Source: an uncultured Deferribacterales bacterium (GTDB lineage: Bacteria; Chrysiogenota; Deferribacteres; Deferribacterales; Mucispirillaceae). From it: DNA of 41,971 bases. Below are positions 1-40,074 of the stretch, piece by piece. Both the position numbers and the translations under genes were made by a program. The first letter of the stretch is position 1. Each line of letters opens with the position of its first letter. The stretch covers positions 1-41,971 of the forward strand of contig CANTXF010000036.1 of the NCBI GenBank assembly GCA_947853665.1, written 5' to 3'. The notes beneath the pieces were generated by a model. That model searched no databases. It saw nothing but the letters and a program-made list of their open reading frames with translations, and was not told the origin of the DNA.

Positions 1-20
1 TGCCCTGGAGCAAGCCTCCG

Positions 21-72
21 TATTATAAATATTTCCCATAACTTTATTAATCTACGTAAAGGTATAGTTGCG
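21..72 (+). repeat. Copy 1 of a ~50-bp intergenic repeat
   Basis: This AT-rich stretch begins TATTATAAATATTTCCCATA and ends around GGTATAGTTGCG. Its left half matches, base for base over most positions, the copies at 14093 (reverse strand) and 34063. Its right half (ATCTACGTAAAGGTATAG) corresponds to GTCTGCGTTAAGGGATAG of the copy at 14093. A 6-7 base longer spacer separates the halves, a trait shared with the copy at 4181. It lies upstream of the EFR1-type gene in that gene's orientation. Function unknown. Confidence 0.5.
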
Positions 73-3962: not shown

Positions 3963-4077
3963 ATTGCCGTGGAAGGCGGCTTTAAAGCGCATGTTTGAGC
4001 GGCTGATAAAAGAACCTGCGTTTTTAAGGCAATCCAACTGGCCTGAAAGCGGCCGTCCTTCCTTCTGCGGCAGCTAG
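3955..4077 (+). CDS. Possible 40-residue ORF overlapping the radical SAM gene
   Basis: ATG 3955 opens a 40-codon frame ending at TAG 4075-4077. The product is basic and amphipathic at its start (FELPWKAALKRMFERLIKEP) and ends in a cysteine-containing tail, FCGS. It overlaps the radical SAM stop by eight bases, an arrangement that favours translational coupling, but the ribosome site (GGCGG) is weak. It could be a real small partner, the remnant of a longer gene, or chance. I do not recognise it. Confidence 0.3.
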   Translation: MFELPWKAALKRMFERLIKEPAFLRQSNWPESGRPSFCGS

Positions 4078-4180
4078 GAATCGGGCCGAAGCGCCCGGCA
4101 AGGCTCCGTATGATGCCTTAATCTTAAGTTTGCTTTACCGCGCAGGTCTGATTATGAATGTTTGTGAGACCGCGGGGCTG

Positions 4181-4233
4181 ATATTTTAATTATTTCTATA
4201 ACCTTATGCTGATCTGCGTGAGTATATGGCTGT
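4181..4233 (+). repeat. Copy 2 of the ~50-bp intergenic repeat (diverged)
   Basis: ATATTTTAATTATTTCTATA followed after a spacer by GATCTGCGTGAGTATATGGC resembles the copy at 21-72 in both halves and shares its longer spacer. It is on the same strand as that copy, so the two bracket the EFR1 gene and the acquired block as direct repeats. No plus-strand gene follows until 11541, so here it cannot be a simple promoter of a neighbour. This is the weakest of the five matches. Confidence 0.4.
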
Positions 4234-12506: not shown

Positions 12507-13977
12507 ATTCGCATATATTTTTATCCGCTTCTATTTCTTCCGATTTCAGGCCGGCGCATCCGGCTATGGAACTGAAAATCCAGTTTTGGGCGGGTTTTCT
12601 TTTACCGTTTGCCGTTATTTTTTCGTTAAGGCCGGTTTCGTTTTCAAGGGCGGGGGAAACCCATATTCCGAAAACCGTGGTTCCTTCCGCGGCCGCCGGG
12701 CTTTTTTCCGTATCCTCCCCGGCAAGTCCGGTAAATATTATTATCGCCCGCCTATTTTCCAGCTTTCTGGAAGCTTCGTATATGAAGGCGTCTATAAAAT
12801 CCATATAGTTAAGATATTCCGCTTCCCGAATATTTTGCCCGTCCGGCCTTTTTTTATTGAATATTTCCGGGTATCTGGCCTTTACTTCCGGCAGGGTGCC
12901 TTCTATGTTTACCGTTATAAATCCGCCGCCGTTTTCAAGGATTTCCGTTATCGCGTCCATGGCGGCGAATGGGTTTGGAGAGCCGGCGGATTTTATTTCT
13001 TCATACGCGCCGGCCTCTTTACCGGCTTCGGCGGAAAATGGCAGGCTTTTTATAAGGGAATTTGACACGTTTATCCAGTGAGTCGCGTATCCGGCGGAGG
13101 AAAACATGGATACTACCGTTCTTTTTTCCGCCGCCGGGCCGAAATTTTCTTTCGACGCTTTTGTAAGGGCGCACATCATAGATACGCCGGTATCTCCGGA
13201 ACATGGCTCGATGCCGGTAAATATGTTCATATTAACGGAGTCCGCTAGAGGCATTGCGCCGGGTTTTTTAAAAAAGATGTCTGACATTCTGTCGGAAACT
13301 ATAACCAGCACCGTAACGTCTTTTTCTCCCGGCACGGCTTTTAGAGGTTCTTTCTCTGCGGAAAGAATTGCCCTGGACAGGCCGCCTGATATATATTCCT
13401 GCATACCGGCCATATATGCCGCAGGCATCGGCGTAAAATCTTTTCCCGTTTCCGATATGTATCTCGCGGAACCTGCCGCCAGAATAAGAGCGACGGCAAA
13501 AACCTGCCCGCGCCTTACTGCCGATTTATCCGCCGCGAAAAATCTGGCGATCCCGAGGGCAAGCCCTAAAAAGAACATGGAGGCCAGATATACTCCGTTT
13601 TCCGGATTGGAGATAAAAAAAGACACAGTTTCGTTGGAAGTGAAAAGGGGGGCTGTTCTTGACGTAGTATCAAGATGGAGCTCCGAGGCGTAGAGCCTGC
13701 TTACCGCCCCTAAATAAAAAAGTATGGGGCACGACGCCGCGAAAACGTATTTCGACAGCATAAGCAGAAAAAACACCGCCAGGCAGCAGAATATGGACGC
13801 CGCCATAAGGGCCGCGTCTCCGTAAACGCTTTCGGATACCGCTTTTATTCTTGGCCCCTCGAAAAGGGCGGAATAGAGGCAGGATGTAAACAGCAGAAGC
13901 ACGTAATATATTACGGAGCTTTTATCCCATGGTACTTTTGTGAATATGCTGTATTTACGCATCTGGTTTCCCGACAT
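12505..13977 (-). CDS. EptA-like membrane protein with eroded metal site
   Basis: 490 residues. Several membrane helices fill residues 22-170, followed by a periplasmic sulfatase-fold domain as in phosphoethanolamine transferases (EptA, MCR). Family marks kept: VTVLVIVSD (221-229), Cys259 and Cys269 ten residues apart with Thr263 four after the first (the disulfide and nucleophile spacing of MCR-1), AGYATHWINVSN (295-306) and RYPEIF (368-373). Family marks lost: the HxxGSH stretch reads VNIEGTL, and the FSDHGE metal motif reads FTGLAGE (415-421), so Asp and His ligands are missing. The GE of GETxRAD is also absent, though Asp229 could replace it. It is therefore either inactive, with a binding or regulatory role, or uses another chemistry. 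Native codon usage; no frameshift. Confidence 0.65.
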   Translation of the reverse strand: MSGNQMRKYSIFTKVPWDKSSVIYYVLLLFTSCLYSALFEGPRIKAVSESVYGDAALMAASIFCCLAVFFLLMLSKYVFAASCPILFYLGAVSRLYASELHLDTTSRTAPLFTSNETVSFFISNPENGVYLASMFFLGLALGIARFFAADKSAVRRGQVFAVALILAAGSARYISETGKDFTPMPAAYMAGMQEYISGGLSRAILSAEKEPLKAVPGEKDVTVLVIVSDRMSDIFFKKPGAMPLADSVNMNIFTGIEPCSGDTGVSMMCALTKASKENFGPAAEKRTVVSMFSSAGYATHWINVSNSLIKSLPFSAEAGKEAGAYEEIKSAGSPNPFAAMDAITEILENGGGFITVNIEGTLPEVKARYPEIFNKKRPDGQNIREAEYLNYMDFIDAFIYEASRKLENRRAIIIFTGLAGEDTEKSPAAAEGTTVFGIWVSPALENETGLNEKITANGKRKPAQNWIFSSIAGCAGLKSEEIEADKNICE

Positions 13978-14604
13978 ATACTTACCGCCTTAATGATTTC
14001 TCCGCCCCGCTCTGCGGCGGGATGTGGCATATTGAAGCAAACTTACGGAAATTGCAAATATTTTGCATGGTTCGGAGAAAACCGTCAAAGTATTTGGCGG
14101 CTATCCCTTAACGCAGACAGTTATGGCAAATAATTATAATAATGCTTTTTTTATTCGTCAAAAGCATTTAATAATAAACCGTGAGCGGCACACGGCAAAC
14201 TCTCCCGATAAGCCCTTATCGGGCGCATTGCAGGACGCTTCGGCTTATATTCTTCAATGCCCCGGGCCAAGGCAGTAAATATTTTCCGTAATTTTTCATA
14301 AGTCTGCGCAAGGGGGATCGCCGCGTTATAAAAGGAAAAGCATATTTTTATTAGGTTTTATGCCGCTTCCGTCTAAATATCATAATAATGCAAGGCTTTA
14401 AGCCTTTAAATTTATTTAAAATAAAATTGTTCTAAAATTACATAAAAAATTCAGATAATATTATTAAATTGCTATGTATATGTTTGCCTTAAAAAATAAT
14501 GCCATAATCTTTTAAGGTATAATTATTTGATATTTAATGATAAAATATACGTATGGCTATACCGTGCCTGTTTAAAATGATAAACGTTGTTATGCAATAA
14601 AATG
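13978..14604. other. Long divergent intergenic region rich in palindromes
   Basis: No convincing gene lies between the minus-strand EptA-like gene and aspA. The region holds TGCAAA/TTTGCA (14053-14067), the repeat at 14093-14141, a hairpin of AATGCTTTT with AAAAGCATT (14141-14149/14160-14168), and the near-perfect palindrome CCCGATAAGCCCTTATCGGG (14204-14223). After about 14360 the sequence turns very AT-rich. TGCAA-N7-TTGCA (14593-14609) overlaps the aspA -35 box. Confidence 0.55.
14093..14141 (-). repeat. Copy 3 of the ~50-bp intergenic repeat
   Basis: Read on the plus strand it contains ACGCAGACAGTTATGGCAAA followed by TAATTATAATA. Over 49 bases it matches the copy at 38373-38421 at 37 positions without gaps. 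It also matches the copy at 34063-34116 on the opposite strand. It lies about 115 bases upstream of the EptA-like gene in the same relative orientation as the copies before ftsZ and the chemoreceptor. Confidence 0.75.
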
Positions 14605-33954: not shown

Positions 33955-34035
33955 TGTGGACGCGGGTTCAGATTAAACGGAAATAAACGGTGATTGTGCT
34001 TTTGCGCGGATTAATGCAAAGTTGTGTAAAATATT

Positions 34036-34041
34036 TATAAT
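34036..34041 (+). promoter_or_regulatory. Possible -10 box of an ftsZ promoter
   Basis: TATAAT inside AT-rich sequence between ftsA and ftsZ. I see no matching -35 at 16-18 bases, so the call is tentative, but the long gap suggests ftsZ has its own promoter. Confidence 0.3.
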
Positions 34042-34062
34042 ATAAGGGCTTGTGACGTATGA

Positions 34063-34116
34063 GGAGCCGATATCATAATTATTTGCCGTAACTGTCTGCG
34101 TTAGGGTGTAGTTACT
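34063..34116 (+). repeat. Copy 4 of the ~50-bp intergenic repeat, before ftsZ
   Basis: It begins GGAGCCGATATCATAATTAT and continues through TTGCCGTAACTGTCTGCG to TTAGGGTGTAGTTACT. The first 22 bases match the copy at 38373-38429 (reverse strand) almost exactly, and the middle matches the copy at 14093. GTAACT and AGTTAC can pair here, but this pairing is not kept in all copies. It lies 78 bases before the ftsZ start. Confidence 0.75.
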
Positions 34117-34194
34117 GAAATAAATTACAAGGGCCTTTTATACCGGTTTGGCGGCTGGCAAAAAGGGCTTTAAGAAGAATTCGGAGGGATCGTT

Positions 34195-35334
34195 ATGGAT
34201 GATTTATTCGTACCCGAAACCATTCCTTATAAGGATGGTGCGGTTATAAAAGTAGTCGGCGTAGGCGGCGCCGGCGGCAACGCCGTTGACAACATGATAG
34301 CGGCGGGCATTTCCAACGTGGAGTTCATATCAATGAATACGGACTCCAGGGCGCTGGGCAAAAACAAGGCCGCTAATAAAATACTGTTAAGCGAAAACGG
34401 TCTTGGAGCAGGCTGTAAGCCTGAGGTGGGCAAAAACTGCGCCATAGAGCGTATCGAAAGCATAAGGAGCGCCCTTAAAGGCTCCGACATGGTGTTTATC
34501 ACCTGCGGCATGGGAGGCGGCACAGGCACGGGAGCGTCCCCGGTAATAGCCGCCGAGGCGAAATCCGCGGGGGCTCTTACCGTGGCGGTGGTTTATATGC
34601 CCCGCGTAATAGACGGCCCCAAAAAGAACGAGCTTGCCAAACAGGGTCTGGACGAGCTGATACAGTATGTGGATTCCTATATCGTCGTTCCCAACGACGG
34701 CATGCAGGACGCGGGTCATAAGAAAAACTTTTTCGAATCCCTTAAAATCGCGGACGACGTGCTGCGCCAGAGCGTGCAGGGCATAAGCGAAATGGCTACG
34801 GGAAGCGGCCACATAAATATCGACTTTGCCGACGTGAGCACCGCCATGACCGAGCGGGGCAAATCCGTTATGGGCATAGGCCGCGCCAGCGGGGAAGGCC
34901 GGGCGAAGCAGGCTTTCGAGGACGCTCTTAAAAGCCCTCTTCTTGCCGATACGAGCATTATGGGAGCTTATTTCGTGCTTGTGAACATAACCTGTAACCA
35001 GGAGGATTTCATGCAGGACGAATACGAGGAAATAAGCACCCTCGCTTTCGAACAGGCCGGTACGAACGCCCAGATAAAGGTTGGCGTAAGCTGCGACGAC
35101 AGGGACGACGGGACCCTTTCCGTTACCATCGTGGCCACGGGGATAACCGGCGCCAAAAAAAGCGAAAACGTTACCCGCATAGAGGACGTTAAACGCAAGC
35201 CTCTGGCCACCGCCGACGAAATTACCCGCAGGACGAGGAGCATATCCAAAAGCGACGGCAACCTTCGCACCATAAGCGATATAAGCGAGGATATATTCGA
35301 GATACCCACATATCTGAGAAAGCAAGCCGATTAA
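34195..35334 (+). CDS. ftsZ: Cell division GTPase FtsZ
   Basis: 379 residues, tubulin-like. VGVGGAGGNAVDNMI (21-35), tubulin signature GGGTGTG (107-113), and the T7 loop NIDFAD (208-213) that completes GTP hydrolysis in the next subunit. A linker (about 318-362) leads to the conserved tail DIFEIPTYLRKQAD, which binds FtsA. Polymerises into the cytoplasmic Z ring. TCGGAGGG precedes the ATG. The stop overlaps the following glycosyltransferase start by one base. Confidence 0.97.
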   Translation: MDDLFVPETIPYKDGAVIKVVGVGGAGGNAVDNMIAAGISNVEFISMNTDSRALGKNKAANKILLSENGLGAGCKPEVGKNCAIERIESIRSALKGSDMVFITCGMGGGTGTGASPVIAAEAKSAGALTVAVVYMPRVIDGPKKNELAKQGLDELIQYVDSYIVVPNDGMQDAGHKKNFFESLKIADDVLRQSVQGISEMATGSGHINIDFADVSTAMTERGKSVMGIGRASGEGRAKQAFEDALKSPLLADTSIMGAYFVLVNITCNQEDFMQDEYEEISTLAFEQAGTNAQIKVGVSCDDRDDGTLSVTIVATGITGAKKSENVTRIEDVKRKPLATADEITRRTRSISKSDGNLRTISDISEDIFEIPTYLRKQAD

Positions 35335-36401: not shown

Positions 36402-38313
36402 ATTTACTCAGTATACTGTTTAAGTTCTCCGCCCTTTCCGTAAGGTTCCTTATGGATTCCTCCACGTCGCCTATGCCTTTGCCCCCTTCGGCCATGCCGG
36501 AGGTTACCATGTCCATATTGGCGTTTATCATTTCTATATCTTTCTTTTCCCTTTCTATATATTCCGACACGTTGTCGGAGGAGCTTACGAGGCTGTCCAC
36601 CGTTTCAGACAGGGAGGCGAACACCCCGCCTGTTATTTCTATGCTTGCCACGCCGCTGTCAACGCTTGCAAGCGCGTCCTTCATGCCTTCGGAGGCCGAT
36701 TTGGACTCTTCCTGAAGGGATATTATTATGCGCTCTATCTCTTCGGTGGATTTAGTCGTTCTGTCCGCCAGCTTTCTCACCTCGTCGGCCACTACCGCAA
36801 ACCCCCGGCCCGCGTCTCCCGCCCTTGCGGCTTCTATGGCGGCGTTAAGGGCAAGTAGATTGGTCTGGGACGCTATATCGTTTATTGAATCCAGTATTAT
36901 AGATATCTGGGACGACGATTCGGAAAGCTTCATTATAGTGGCCGAAAGGCTGGAGGTTCTGTCGCTTATATGGTTTATGCTTTCGTTTACGTTGGAAAGG
37001 TTGCCGTTGCCGTCCGCTGCGGTATCGGCCGCTTTTTTCAGCAGCTCCTTGTTGGTTTCGTTGAGGGAGGCCACTTTTTCGAAGCCGGAGGCCATAGTCT
37101 GGGCGGACGAGGTGGCTTCGTCTATCTGGGAGGACTGCACGTGAAAGATACCTTTGAGTTGGTCCATAGAGGAGGACATCCGGGAGTTTTCCGTAATAAG
37201 GGCTTCCGTAGCGTCGCGGACGTCCGATATGGCTTTCTGCAGCTTCTCTATAAAAGCGTTCATGGCGGAGGCGATGTGTCCGAGGTCGTCATTCGTGTTT
37301 ACCGGCAGCCGTTTTGTAAGGTCCGATTCGCCGCTTGCCAGATTTTCCGTTACGGAGCGCAGATTTTTAATATCCCTTAAAGCTATGTTGATTATAACCA
37401 CGATCAGCGTTATTGAAAGGGCGAACATCACAAGGCCCACCGCCGCCGATTTAAAGGCGTTTTCCCTTTGCTGGGCGTAAAGCATGCTCTCTGGTATCTG
37501 ATAGATTACTGCCCAGCCGCTGTTTTCAAGGTTCTTGAAAACCACCGCCGTGGGGCCGTTTTCGCTTTCGTAAGTATATATTTTTCCTTTGTTCGCCGCG
37601 TTCGATATAAATCCGGGAAGGGCGGCAAGCCCTTTGTGCATTTTCGAAACGTTTTTAAGGGTAAGCTCCTTTTTCTCCGTTACGATAAGCGTTCCGTCCA
37701 GGGACATCAGGGCGGCGCGCCCGTCTATGCCCATGTTGGAGGTTTTAAGTATGTTATCCAGATAGTCGAATTCAAAATCTATGGAAAAAACGCCTTGCGT
37801 TTTCCCGTTTATTTTTATAGGGACGCAGAGGGTTACGCAGGGCTTGCCGGTGGTGGAATCCGTGTAAGGCTCCGATACGTAAACCCCTTCCGTTTTGCGG
37901 GCGTTTATATACCAGTCCCTTGTGCGGTGGTCGTACCCTTCCGGAATGCTGCCCACTATTCCGCTCATTACCGTTCCGTCGTCGAAGCCTATGGTAACGT
38001 CCAGGATATCAAGGTTTTCCACCATGTTGGAAGCCATTTTCTGGTATCTGAACACGTCGGACGGTTTTTCAAGCTCCATAACGTCCGCGGCAAGGGCGAC
38101 GGTCTTGCCGTAGCTTGCCAGCCACTCGTCCGTTCTGCCTGCCATGCTTGATATGATACTTGTAATATTGTTATTTATCAGAGACCTGGAATATATCGAG
38201 TTGTTATAGTAGCCGTAAGGCACTATTATGGCTATCATAAGCGCCATACATCCTATAACGGCTCCCAGTATTTTTATTTTCAGACTTATGTTGAGAAGCG
38301 AACGTATTTTCAT
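36391..38313 (-). CDS. Methyl-accepting chemotaxis protein with amino-acid dCache
   Basis: 640 residues: TM1 (about 14-34), periplasmic double Cache (about 36-285), TM2 (about 289-311), HAMP (about 312-365) and the signalling domain, with the conserved tip in [20 protein letters not shown] and [15 protein letters not shown]. Tyr127, Arg132, Trp134, Tyr135, Tyr150, Asp152 and Asp179 match in identity and spacing the ligand motif of amino-acid dCache domains (as in PctA). It should sense an amino acid in the periplasm and control CheA. No CheR-binding pentapeptide at the end (stops at SKFKI). Its stop lies inside the glycosyltransferase gene; a copy of the intergenic repeat lies 59 bases before its start. 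Confidence 0.93.
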
Positions 38314-38372
38314 GTTTTCAGCCCCCGTCTTAAACGCGTATGAATGATAAAATATTTTTTAGCTTATATATT

Positions 38373-38429
38373 TTAGGCGACTGTACACTGACGCGGACAG
38401 CTGCGGGAAATAATTATAATATCGGCTCC
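38373..38429 (-). repeat. Copy 5 of the ~50-bp intergenic repeat, before the chemoreceptor
   Basis: On the minus strand it starts GGAGCCGATATTATAATTAT and runs through TTCCCGCAGCTGTCCGCG to AGTGTACAGTCGCCTAA. It pairs best with the copies at 34063 and 14093. Orientation relative to the gene downstream is the same as for ftsZ. Confidence 0.75.
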
Positions 38430-38601
38430 GCGTCGTTTGCCGTCAGACCGGCGCGCGGCGGCAGATTCCTGCAATACCCTTATCTTATACGGTTCCTTGC
38501 AGGGCTTCCGCCGTCGTATTAGTTAAGTATATGAATATATACTATAAATATTCGGGGGGGGGCAAGTCTTTCTTTGAAAAAGGCGCGATATTTTCAGGAG
38601 T
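38430..38601. other. Intergenic sequence between LRR and chemoreceptor genes
   Basis: AGTATAT-GAAT-ATATACT (38526-38543) is an inverted repeat, followed by a run of ten G at 38554-38563. No terminator with a clear stem is visible after the LRR gene. Confidence 0.4.
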
Positions 38602-40074
38602 TCATTTTTTCCTGCGCAGGCCCCTAACCAGCAGCAGAGCAGCCAGCGCCGCCCATGCGGCGTCCGCCGCCGGAAGCGCTCCGTAAGGCAGGGCTGAGCA
38701 GCCTCCGCCCGCGGTGGATTCGAATTCGCTCAATGTGATATTGTCGTCCTCCAGGGTGTTTTTGCCGTTTACAAGGTCGGAATTTACAACGGTCTGATTA
38801 TCCGGAAAAGCGTCCTCCGGATAATTTTCGCACTGGTGGTCGAGGCGCAGTATCTGTATATCGTTTATGTATGGCACTTTGCGATAGTTTTCTCTCGGTA
38901 TGCAGTTGTAGCTTAAGCCAAGCTCCTGGATATTGGCAGTAAGGGTAAGATCCGCCACGGACGAAATATCTTTTATCACGTTATAATCGAAAACCAGACG
39001 TTTAGCCTTTTTCATGCGGGAAAGAACGCTTACGTCGCTTACACTGTTGTTCAGAAGCTGGAGGTCTCTCAGCTCCGTAAGGTTGTCCAGAGGCGAGATA
39101 TCGCTTATTCTGTTGCTGCTTCCTACAAGGACGTTGAGCCTTGTAAGATTATCCAGAGGGGAAAGGCTCGTTACCATATTTATGCTGAAATCAAGGCCGG
39201 AAAGCTCCGTCATGCCTGAAAGGGGAGAAAGATCGCTTATCCTGTTGTCTCTCAGGCTGAGATATGTCATGTGTATCATGCCGGAAAGGGGGGATATATC
39301 CGTTATTTTATTTCCCTGGAGGCTCAATACCCTCATTCTTACAAGAGAGCCCATAGGGGTTATATCTTTTATGTAATCCGGCCCCTGGTATTCCAGCGAC
39401 AGGGTTTCCAGGGAATTTATAAATGGTATGAATTCCAGATCCGTAACCCTGTTTCCTTTAAGGTCCAGATTCTTTAGCTTTTTCATGCGGGCGAGAAAGC
39501 CTATTTCAGATATTTCGGAATATGGTATTTCGAGAGTTTCAAGCCCGGTCAGGTTCCTTATGGGGGCCAGGCTTTCCACCTTCGTTCCCTTAAGGCTGAA
39601 GGAGAGGCTTTTCAGGTTGGGAAATTGCTGCAGGCCGTCCAGGCTTGTGATTTCCGGGTCGTCGCATTCTATTGCGGTTATCAGGGCGGCCTGTCCGCAC
39701 AGCATGGGCCAGCGCACCGCGTTCGAATATTTGCGCACGCAGTTTTCAAGCCGGGTTCCGTAAGGAAAAAGCACCGGGTCGGACGGGTTTTCGCAGGAAT
39801 AGTTGTCGTAAACTCCGGCAAAAAGTTCTTTGAGCTTTTTTACCGTTTCGTTGTCCTCCGTTTCGTTATCCGTTTCATTGTCCGTAGAGTTGTCCGGCGT
39901 GTTTTCGGTAGAGTTATCCGTCGAATTGTCCGTGGCGTTGTCGCTGGAATTATCGGTAGAGTTGTCGGTAATGCCGCCTCCTTCCGAGGGCGGTACGGCG
40001 TCATCCCCGTACATACGGGGAACCGCCAGAAGCGCAAGCTGTAATGTCATAAGCACGGCAACGATTATACGCAT
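38602..40074 (-). CDS. Surface leucine-rich-repeat protein with sorting-type C-terminus
   Basis: 490 residues: Sec signal (1-22 or so); an Asn/Asp/Thr linker of four-residue DNST-like units (about 36-76); a cap with four Cys; internalin-type LRRs of 22 residues (about 130-420), for example NKITDISPLSGMIHMTYLSL. The tail holds GGGCS (456-460), a hydrophobic stretch (AAWAALAALLLV) and RGLRRKK. That Gly-Cys motif, membrane helix and basic end is the plan of the MYXO-CTERM, JDVT-CTERM and Synerg-CTERM sorting signals, which are cut by membrane proteases. I expect a cell-surface adhesin or receptor; the partner protease is not in this window. An LRR variant of unknown ligand. Confidence 0.75.
   Translation of the reverse strand: MRIIVAVLMTLQLALLAVPRMYGDDAVPPSEGGGITDNSTDNSSDNATDNSTDNSTENTPDNSTDNETDNETEDNETVKKLKELFAGVYDNYSCENPSDPVLFPYGTRLENCVRKYSNAVRWPMLCGQAALITAIECDDPEITSLDGLQQFPNLKSLSFSLKGTKVESLAPIRNLTGLETLEIPYSEISEIGFLARMKKLKNLDLKGNRVTDLEFIPFINSLETLSLEYQGPDYIKDITPMGSLVRMRVLSLQGNKITDISPLSGMIHMTYLSLRDNRISDLSPLSGMTELSGLDFSINMVTSLSPLDNLTRLNVLVGSSNRISDISPLDNLTELRDLQLLNNSVSDVSVLSRMKKAKRLVFDYNVIKDISSVADLTLTANIQELGLSYNCIPRENYRKVPYINDIQILRLDHQCENYPEDAFPDNQTVVNSDLVNGKNTLEDDNITLSEFESTAGGGCSALPYGALPAADAAWAALAALLLVRGLRRKK
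39845..39970 (-). repeat. In-frame 12-nt tandem repeat inside the LRR gene
   Basis: Imperfect 12-base units encode repeats of Asp-Asn-Ser-Thr and its variants (NSS, NAT, NTP, NET). Unit number can change by slippage without breaking the frame, so linker length may vary between strains. Confidence 0.65.

Follow-up and report, generated by a model that had tools for sequence, protein, structure and literature searches.

A ~50-bp repeat upstream of ftsZ as one end of a ~230-bp palindromic MITE in an uncultured Deferribacterales bacterium

The ERIC element of enterobacteria is an imperfect palindrome of about 127 bp. It is intergenic and present in tens to hundreds of copies (PMC10969869). The Correia element of Neisseria is short and transposon-like, occurs in >100 copies, has been reported to invert, and carries demonstrated promoters and an IHF site (PMC10969869). 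Chunjie of Geobacter uraniireducens measures 235 bp at full length, with variants of 178-235 bp, and shows dozens of intergenic and partial copies, terminal inverted repeats and target duplications (PMC10969869). For prokaryotic MITEs in general, a review quotes terminal repeats of ~4-30 bp (PMC10969869).

Here we analysed a 41,971-nt stretch of DNA from an uncultured Deferribacterales bacterium (the window), together with stretches covering 62% of the 2.43-Mb genome; with the window they form a genome sample of 1.54 Mb, from which totals are extrapolated. A first-pass annotation of the window had described a ~50-bp element repeated in five intergenic regions. Our results indicate that this repeat is almost certainly one end of a ~230-bp gene-less MITE, and not a common control site of ftsZ and other genes. 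The MITE is of a kind already known, and the family itself is new and confined to the Mucispirillum-like lineage in everything searched. It is like Chunjie in size and behaviour, like ERIC in being palindromic, intergenic and similarly numerous, although ERIC is shorter, and like Correia in copy number and perhaps in inversion, which swapped arms in some copies suggest; Chunjie and Correia belong to other phyla, all three are compared by description only, and no homology is claimed. In contrast to Correia, neither promoters nor an IHF site are shown for this MITE, and its terminal repeats of ~46-54 bp exceed the range quoted in the review (PMC10969869).

Structure of the element and its copies in the window

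The five ~50-bp copies, first reported from positions 21, 4181, 14093, 34063 and 38373, are present at or very near these positions, and those at 14093 and 38373 share 76% identity across 49 positions (37/49). The distances of 59-213 bp to downstream genes are also correct (EFR1-type ferredoxin at position 286; sulfatase/EptA-like at 13977; ftsZ at 34195; chemoreceptor at 38313). The ~50-bp unit is thus a real repeat, but it is only part of an element with a true length of ~230 bp that carries the motif inverted at both ends. Four copies had been read as lying upstream of genes in the same orientation; they do precede genes, whereas their shared orientation comes largely from the presence of the motif at both MITE ends. 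The copy at 4181 sits between two gene 3' ends (a 302-aa ORF on the + strand and a PBP-like gene on the - strand) and not upstream. With the ftsZ copy as query, BLAST of the genome returned 40 matches, and in the flanks of most of them similarity extended over ~230 bp, with the other side closed by the inverted motif.

Near full-length copies in the genome sample are 192-238 bp long. Their left and right ends align as imperfect inverted copies, with the outer ends paired as GGCGGCTATCCCCTWACGCAGAT...AGTTATGG; the consensus left end is GGCGGCTATCCCCTAACGCAGAT-AGTTATGGCAAATAATTATAATAATGCTCC and the right end, in inward reading, is CGCAGCTATACCCTTACGCAGATTAATGTAAAGTTATGGAAAATATTTATAATACGGCGGC. 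A ~6-8-bp spacer, usually located in the right arm, interrupts the match between the two ends, and the MITE profile aligns with its own reverse complement across the full length. The longest ORF in any copy encodes 12-58 aa, no transposase gene is present within a total of less than ~500 bp, and the G+C content is 44% vs 49% for the genome sample. In its length, inverted repeats, duplications, scattered positions between genes and lack of coding sequence, the element agrees with the features that the review lists for prokaryotic MITEs (PMC10969869).

The copies in the window differ in preservation (Table 1). In the ftsA-ftsZ spacer, a right-type end (33988-34052) faces a left-type end (34070-34116), and this copy contains the reported stretch 34063-34116. 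The copy ahead of the chemoreceptor gene has a likely duplication, ATATTTTA (38368-38375) and ATATTTTC (38588-38595), which match at 7/8 positions. At the start of the window, the assembly breaks inside the repeat. The window also encodes a leucine-rich-repeat protein, whose gene contains a coding repeat of 12-bp period.

Table 1 Features of the window and of other parts of the assembly
Feature	Location	Strand	Remarks
MITE right end, cut by contig start	window 2..72	+	includes the first-reported copy at 21-72
Decayed MITE, outer far end lost	window 4064..4232	-	profile match
Full-length MITE, 230 bp, upstream of sulfatase/EptA-like gene	window 14096..14325	+	both ends present
Left target-site duplication GAAATAAA, ftsZ copy	window 33980..33987	.	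exact 8/8 match to 34117-34124
MITE in ftsA-ftsZ spacer, 129 bp, internally deleted	window 33988..34116	-	inverted-repeat alignment and flanking duplication
Right target-site duplication GAAATAAA, ftsZ copy	window 34117..34124	.	exact match to the left one
ftsZ, adjoining the reported copy	window 34195..35334	+	Tubulin 3.7e-40, FtsZ_C 2.3e-19
Decayed MITE upstream of chemoreceptor gene	window 38376..38587	+	far end degenerate, limits from putative duplication
490-aa leucine-rich-repeat protein	window 38602-40074	-	coding repeat at 39857-39966
Arm-swapped MITE copies	L086:4446-4677, L145:6161-6387, L116:12046-12275, L097:9773-9981, L088:9357-9553
IS256-family insertion sequence	G000:C16:253918-254964 (L235, L043)		1293 bp
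Contig ends with hairpin-unit mosaics	C13, C17, C20, C21, C27, C29, C39, C43, C44, C50; further C53, C54, C59, C67		e.g. L130, L097, L088
Contig ends with the CxxCH-encoding gene	C7, C11, C18, C25, C28, C42, C46, C47, C48, C52, C57

Across 37 end-to-end copies, the flanks carry an 8-bp duplication with a mean identity of 0.696 at k=8 vs 0.43 expected. Its length is sharply 8 bp, since flank identity is near background at k=7 (0.49) and k=9 (0.44). All eight positions match in 8/37 copies vs 0.03 expected, and 0 of 20,000 permutations reached the observed mean identity. The duplications are 90% A/T. Some full-length copies have no recognisable duplication, such as the one at 14096 (2/8), for which age may account. 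Copies average 0.81 identity to the consensus, and by our own arithmetic independent decay of both duplications predicts ~0.66-0.70, which is close to the observed value; the duplications decay in step with the element.

The ftsA-ftsZ spacer without the element and one duplication would be ~103 bp, and by eye the corresponding spacers are of similar size in the seven closest relatives, which are Mucispirillum and uncultured members of the Deferribacteraceae with FtsZ identities of 62-64%. Comparison with related genomes had been suggested as a check on conservation, and in these seven Mucispirillaceae, distant relatives compared at this one locus, no MITE lies between ftsA and ftsZ. The target duplications, the inverted repeats at the ends, the scattered and truncated copies and the empty site of the relatives all show that the element is a transposon.

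Abundance, arm exchange and assembly breaks

A profile search of the genome sample, in line with another check proposed with the first-pass annotation, indeed found many further copies. The 1.54 Mb contains 126 non-overlapping profile matches, 53 of them near full length, with a best E-value of 4.5e-68 in the genome sample and no matches in the same sequence reversed, so the repeat is far beyond chance. Together they make up 20.9 kb, or ~1.4% of the sequence sampled. The whole genome of 2.43 Mb perhaps holds ~180-200 copies by extrapolation, and a profile of the ends alone located at least 152 MITE ends genome-wide. Mean identity is 81% between full copies and the consensus and 71% among the full copies themselves, and most are therefore old. 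The MITE lies at 22/109 sampled contig ends, the start of this window included, and its copies account for about a fifth of the sampled assembly breaks.

In at least 5 of the 34 aligned copies (Table 1), the left outer arm holds the long spacer and the right outer arm the short one, with the orientation of the centre kept; a cruder count gave 7/37. This arrangement suggests inversion or gene conversion between the MITE arms, either of which would give swapped arms. It is a long shot that, in a lineage-specific palindromic MITE with inverting outer arms, such inversion or outward promoters at the ends could switch or set neighbouring genes, including ftsZ.

Two other kinds of repeat were observed in this assembly. 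A second intergenic family consists of mosaics of ~35-45-bp hairpin units (GAGCCGCATTAATTGAGGCGGCTC; GCGACGCGCGAC...; ACGTCTGC...GCAGACGT) joined by the linker TTTCTGTCCACCA, which occurs 35 times in 1.54 Mb and 0 times in the window, and it too is found at contig ends (Table 1). In addition, 11 contig ends mark assembly breaks at a multicopy gene whose 3' part, by eye, encodes a CxxCH (heme-binding) motif; this suggests a repeated cytochrome gene family behind these breaks.

Genomic placement and folding of the copies

Among 83 copies away from contig edges, only 5 show >30% overlap with an ORF of 100 aa or longer, vs 4545/4937 random placements (92%). For these tests, genes were taken to be long ORFs, picked by simple greedy selection with no curated annotation. 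Of the 78 intergenic copies, 41 occupy tandem gaps, 23 convergent gaps and 14 divergent gaps, vs ~44, 15 and 19 expected from all gaps >= 60 bp (p = 0.05). The left end, which when read outward gives the core of the first-reported motif, faces 34 gene 5' ends and 31 3' ends (baseline 53% 5', p = 1.0), so that the clustering of copies before gene starts, which had been put forward as a check, is not seen. For the right end, gene 3' ends outnumber 5' ends by 46:27 (p = 0.007, uncorrected). This placement fits insertion and selection against damage, not a regulatory site.

These data bear on the proposal that the repeat is a shared operator or promoter of a global (cell-cycle or growth) regulator acting upstream of ftsZ, the chemoreceptor gene and others. 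Four of the five copies in the window do precede genes at 59-213 bp, a TATAAT-like sequence lies within the inner end of the MITE, and a consensus-like copy contains 2 sigma-70-like matches vs 1.0 expected by chance. However, the left end has no genome-wide preference for 5' ends and the right end prefers 3' ends, convergent gaps are if anything enriched (23/78 vs ~15 expected), the conserved unit is ~230 bp long with duplicated flanks, and relatives lack the element between ftsA and ftsZ. As a general explanation, an operator or promoter is contradicted by the genome-wide placement, the unit length and the empty ftsZ spacers, and we give it very little credence.

A narrower possibility is partial co-option of the MITE at some loci, ftsZ for example, where it would provide an outward promoter or a transcript-end hairpin. 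Precedents exist in Correia and in several further MITEs (PMC10969869), a weak promoter-like match is present at 34050-34079 in the ftsZ copy, and the lean of right ends to gene 3' ends would accord with it. On the other hand, the number of promoter-like matches stays within the range of chance (2 vs 1.0-1.1 expected), no intrinsic terminator was found, and the orientation bias of the right ends is weak and uncorrected. Co-option of this kind is therefore rather unlikely, at some loci only.

Single copies of the palindrome fold strongly, with -76.5 kcal/mol (z -6.8) for a consensus-like copy and -77.1 kcal/mol (z -4.75) for the copy at 14096..14325, which could point to a structured leader or small RNA produced from it. 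However, the fold is accounted for by the palindrome, and the placement of the copies does not favour 5' leaders. Compensatory substitutions, proposed as a further check, did not exceed shuffles in the hairpin of 34 aligned copies: cells were paired at 78.1% vs 77.9%, the covariation score was 0.129 vs 0.128, and 240/500 shuffles scored as high. RNAalifold gave no consensus pairs across the 34 copies, and Rfam had no match within the window. A leader RNA or conserved RNA structure was rejected on these grounds and is highly improbable; the stem goes back to the ancestral palindrome, whose arms decay independently. Since there is neither 5'-end enrichment nor compensatory substitution, the operator and the leader RNA are disfavoured and a MITE mobilised in trans is favoured. 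Thus, among the explanations first offered for the repeat, the small mobile repeat stands, whereas a regulator site or promoter and a leader RNA do not as general explanations.

Mobilisation, distribution and implications

Eight transposase Pfam families were searched across the whole assembly, and IS256 was the sole family matched; ISL3, IS1595, DDE_Tnp_1 (IS4/5), IS240/IS6, IS66, IS1 and rve transposases were absent from it. The IS256-type element, with ends GAGCCTGTNNNNAATTTTGTGTAA, is multicopy, judged from 8 contig ends. Duplications of 8 bp are usual for IS256 elements, as for this MITE, but the terminal repeats differ: those of the IS256-type element resemble the MITE ends no better than shuffles (p 0.36-0.99), and it was rejected as the partner. 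Only one pair of MITE ends, L099:3534-5448, is widely spaced; between them lie ordinary genes and a complete MITE but no recognised transposase, and this pair was likewise rejected. This draft assembly, which breaks at repeats and was read base by base over 62% of its length, yielded no autonomous element whose ends match those of the MITE. Because the IS256-type ends do not resemble those of the MITE, the autonomous partner is lost, unassembled or of another family than the eight searched.

According to the mechanism that we propose, a DDE-type transposase acting in trans would have bound the MITE ends, copied or moved the MITE and cut A/T-rich intergenic DNA with an 8-bp stagger, giving the 8-bp duplication. 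This transposase would now be lost or missing from the assembly. The persistence of the MITE would be neutral (selfish), and where a single copy affects a neighbouring gene, for instance ftsZ, the effect would be incidental to that copy.

Against 39 relatives from the family and order, the full MITE gave a single weak match of 31 bp, and in 14 family genomes the end profile gave marginal matches only (best E 0.0017). Exact 25-mers of the MITE were absent from GTDB genomes and IMG/VR, sets that may omit the source genome, and blastn of phage and plasmid collections returned no match. The genus of this Mucispirillum-like bacterium is covered by one genome. A limited literature search found no MITE or insertion-sequence report relevant to Mucispirillum or Deferribacter.

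These results remove a false lead, the idea that ftsZ and other genes are preceded by a common control site. They also describe an abundant MITE family for the Deferribacterales/Mucispirillum lineage, of which the same limited literature search turned up no previous description. The copies could serve as strain-typing markers and as a means to ask whether palindromic MITEs change the expression of essential genes.
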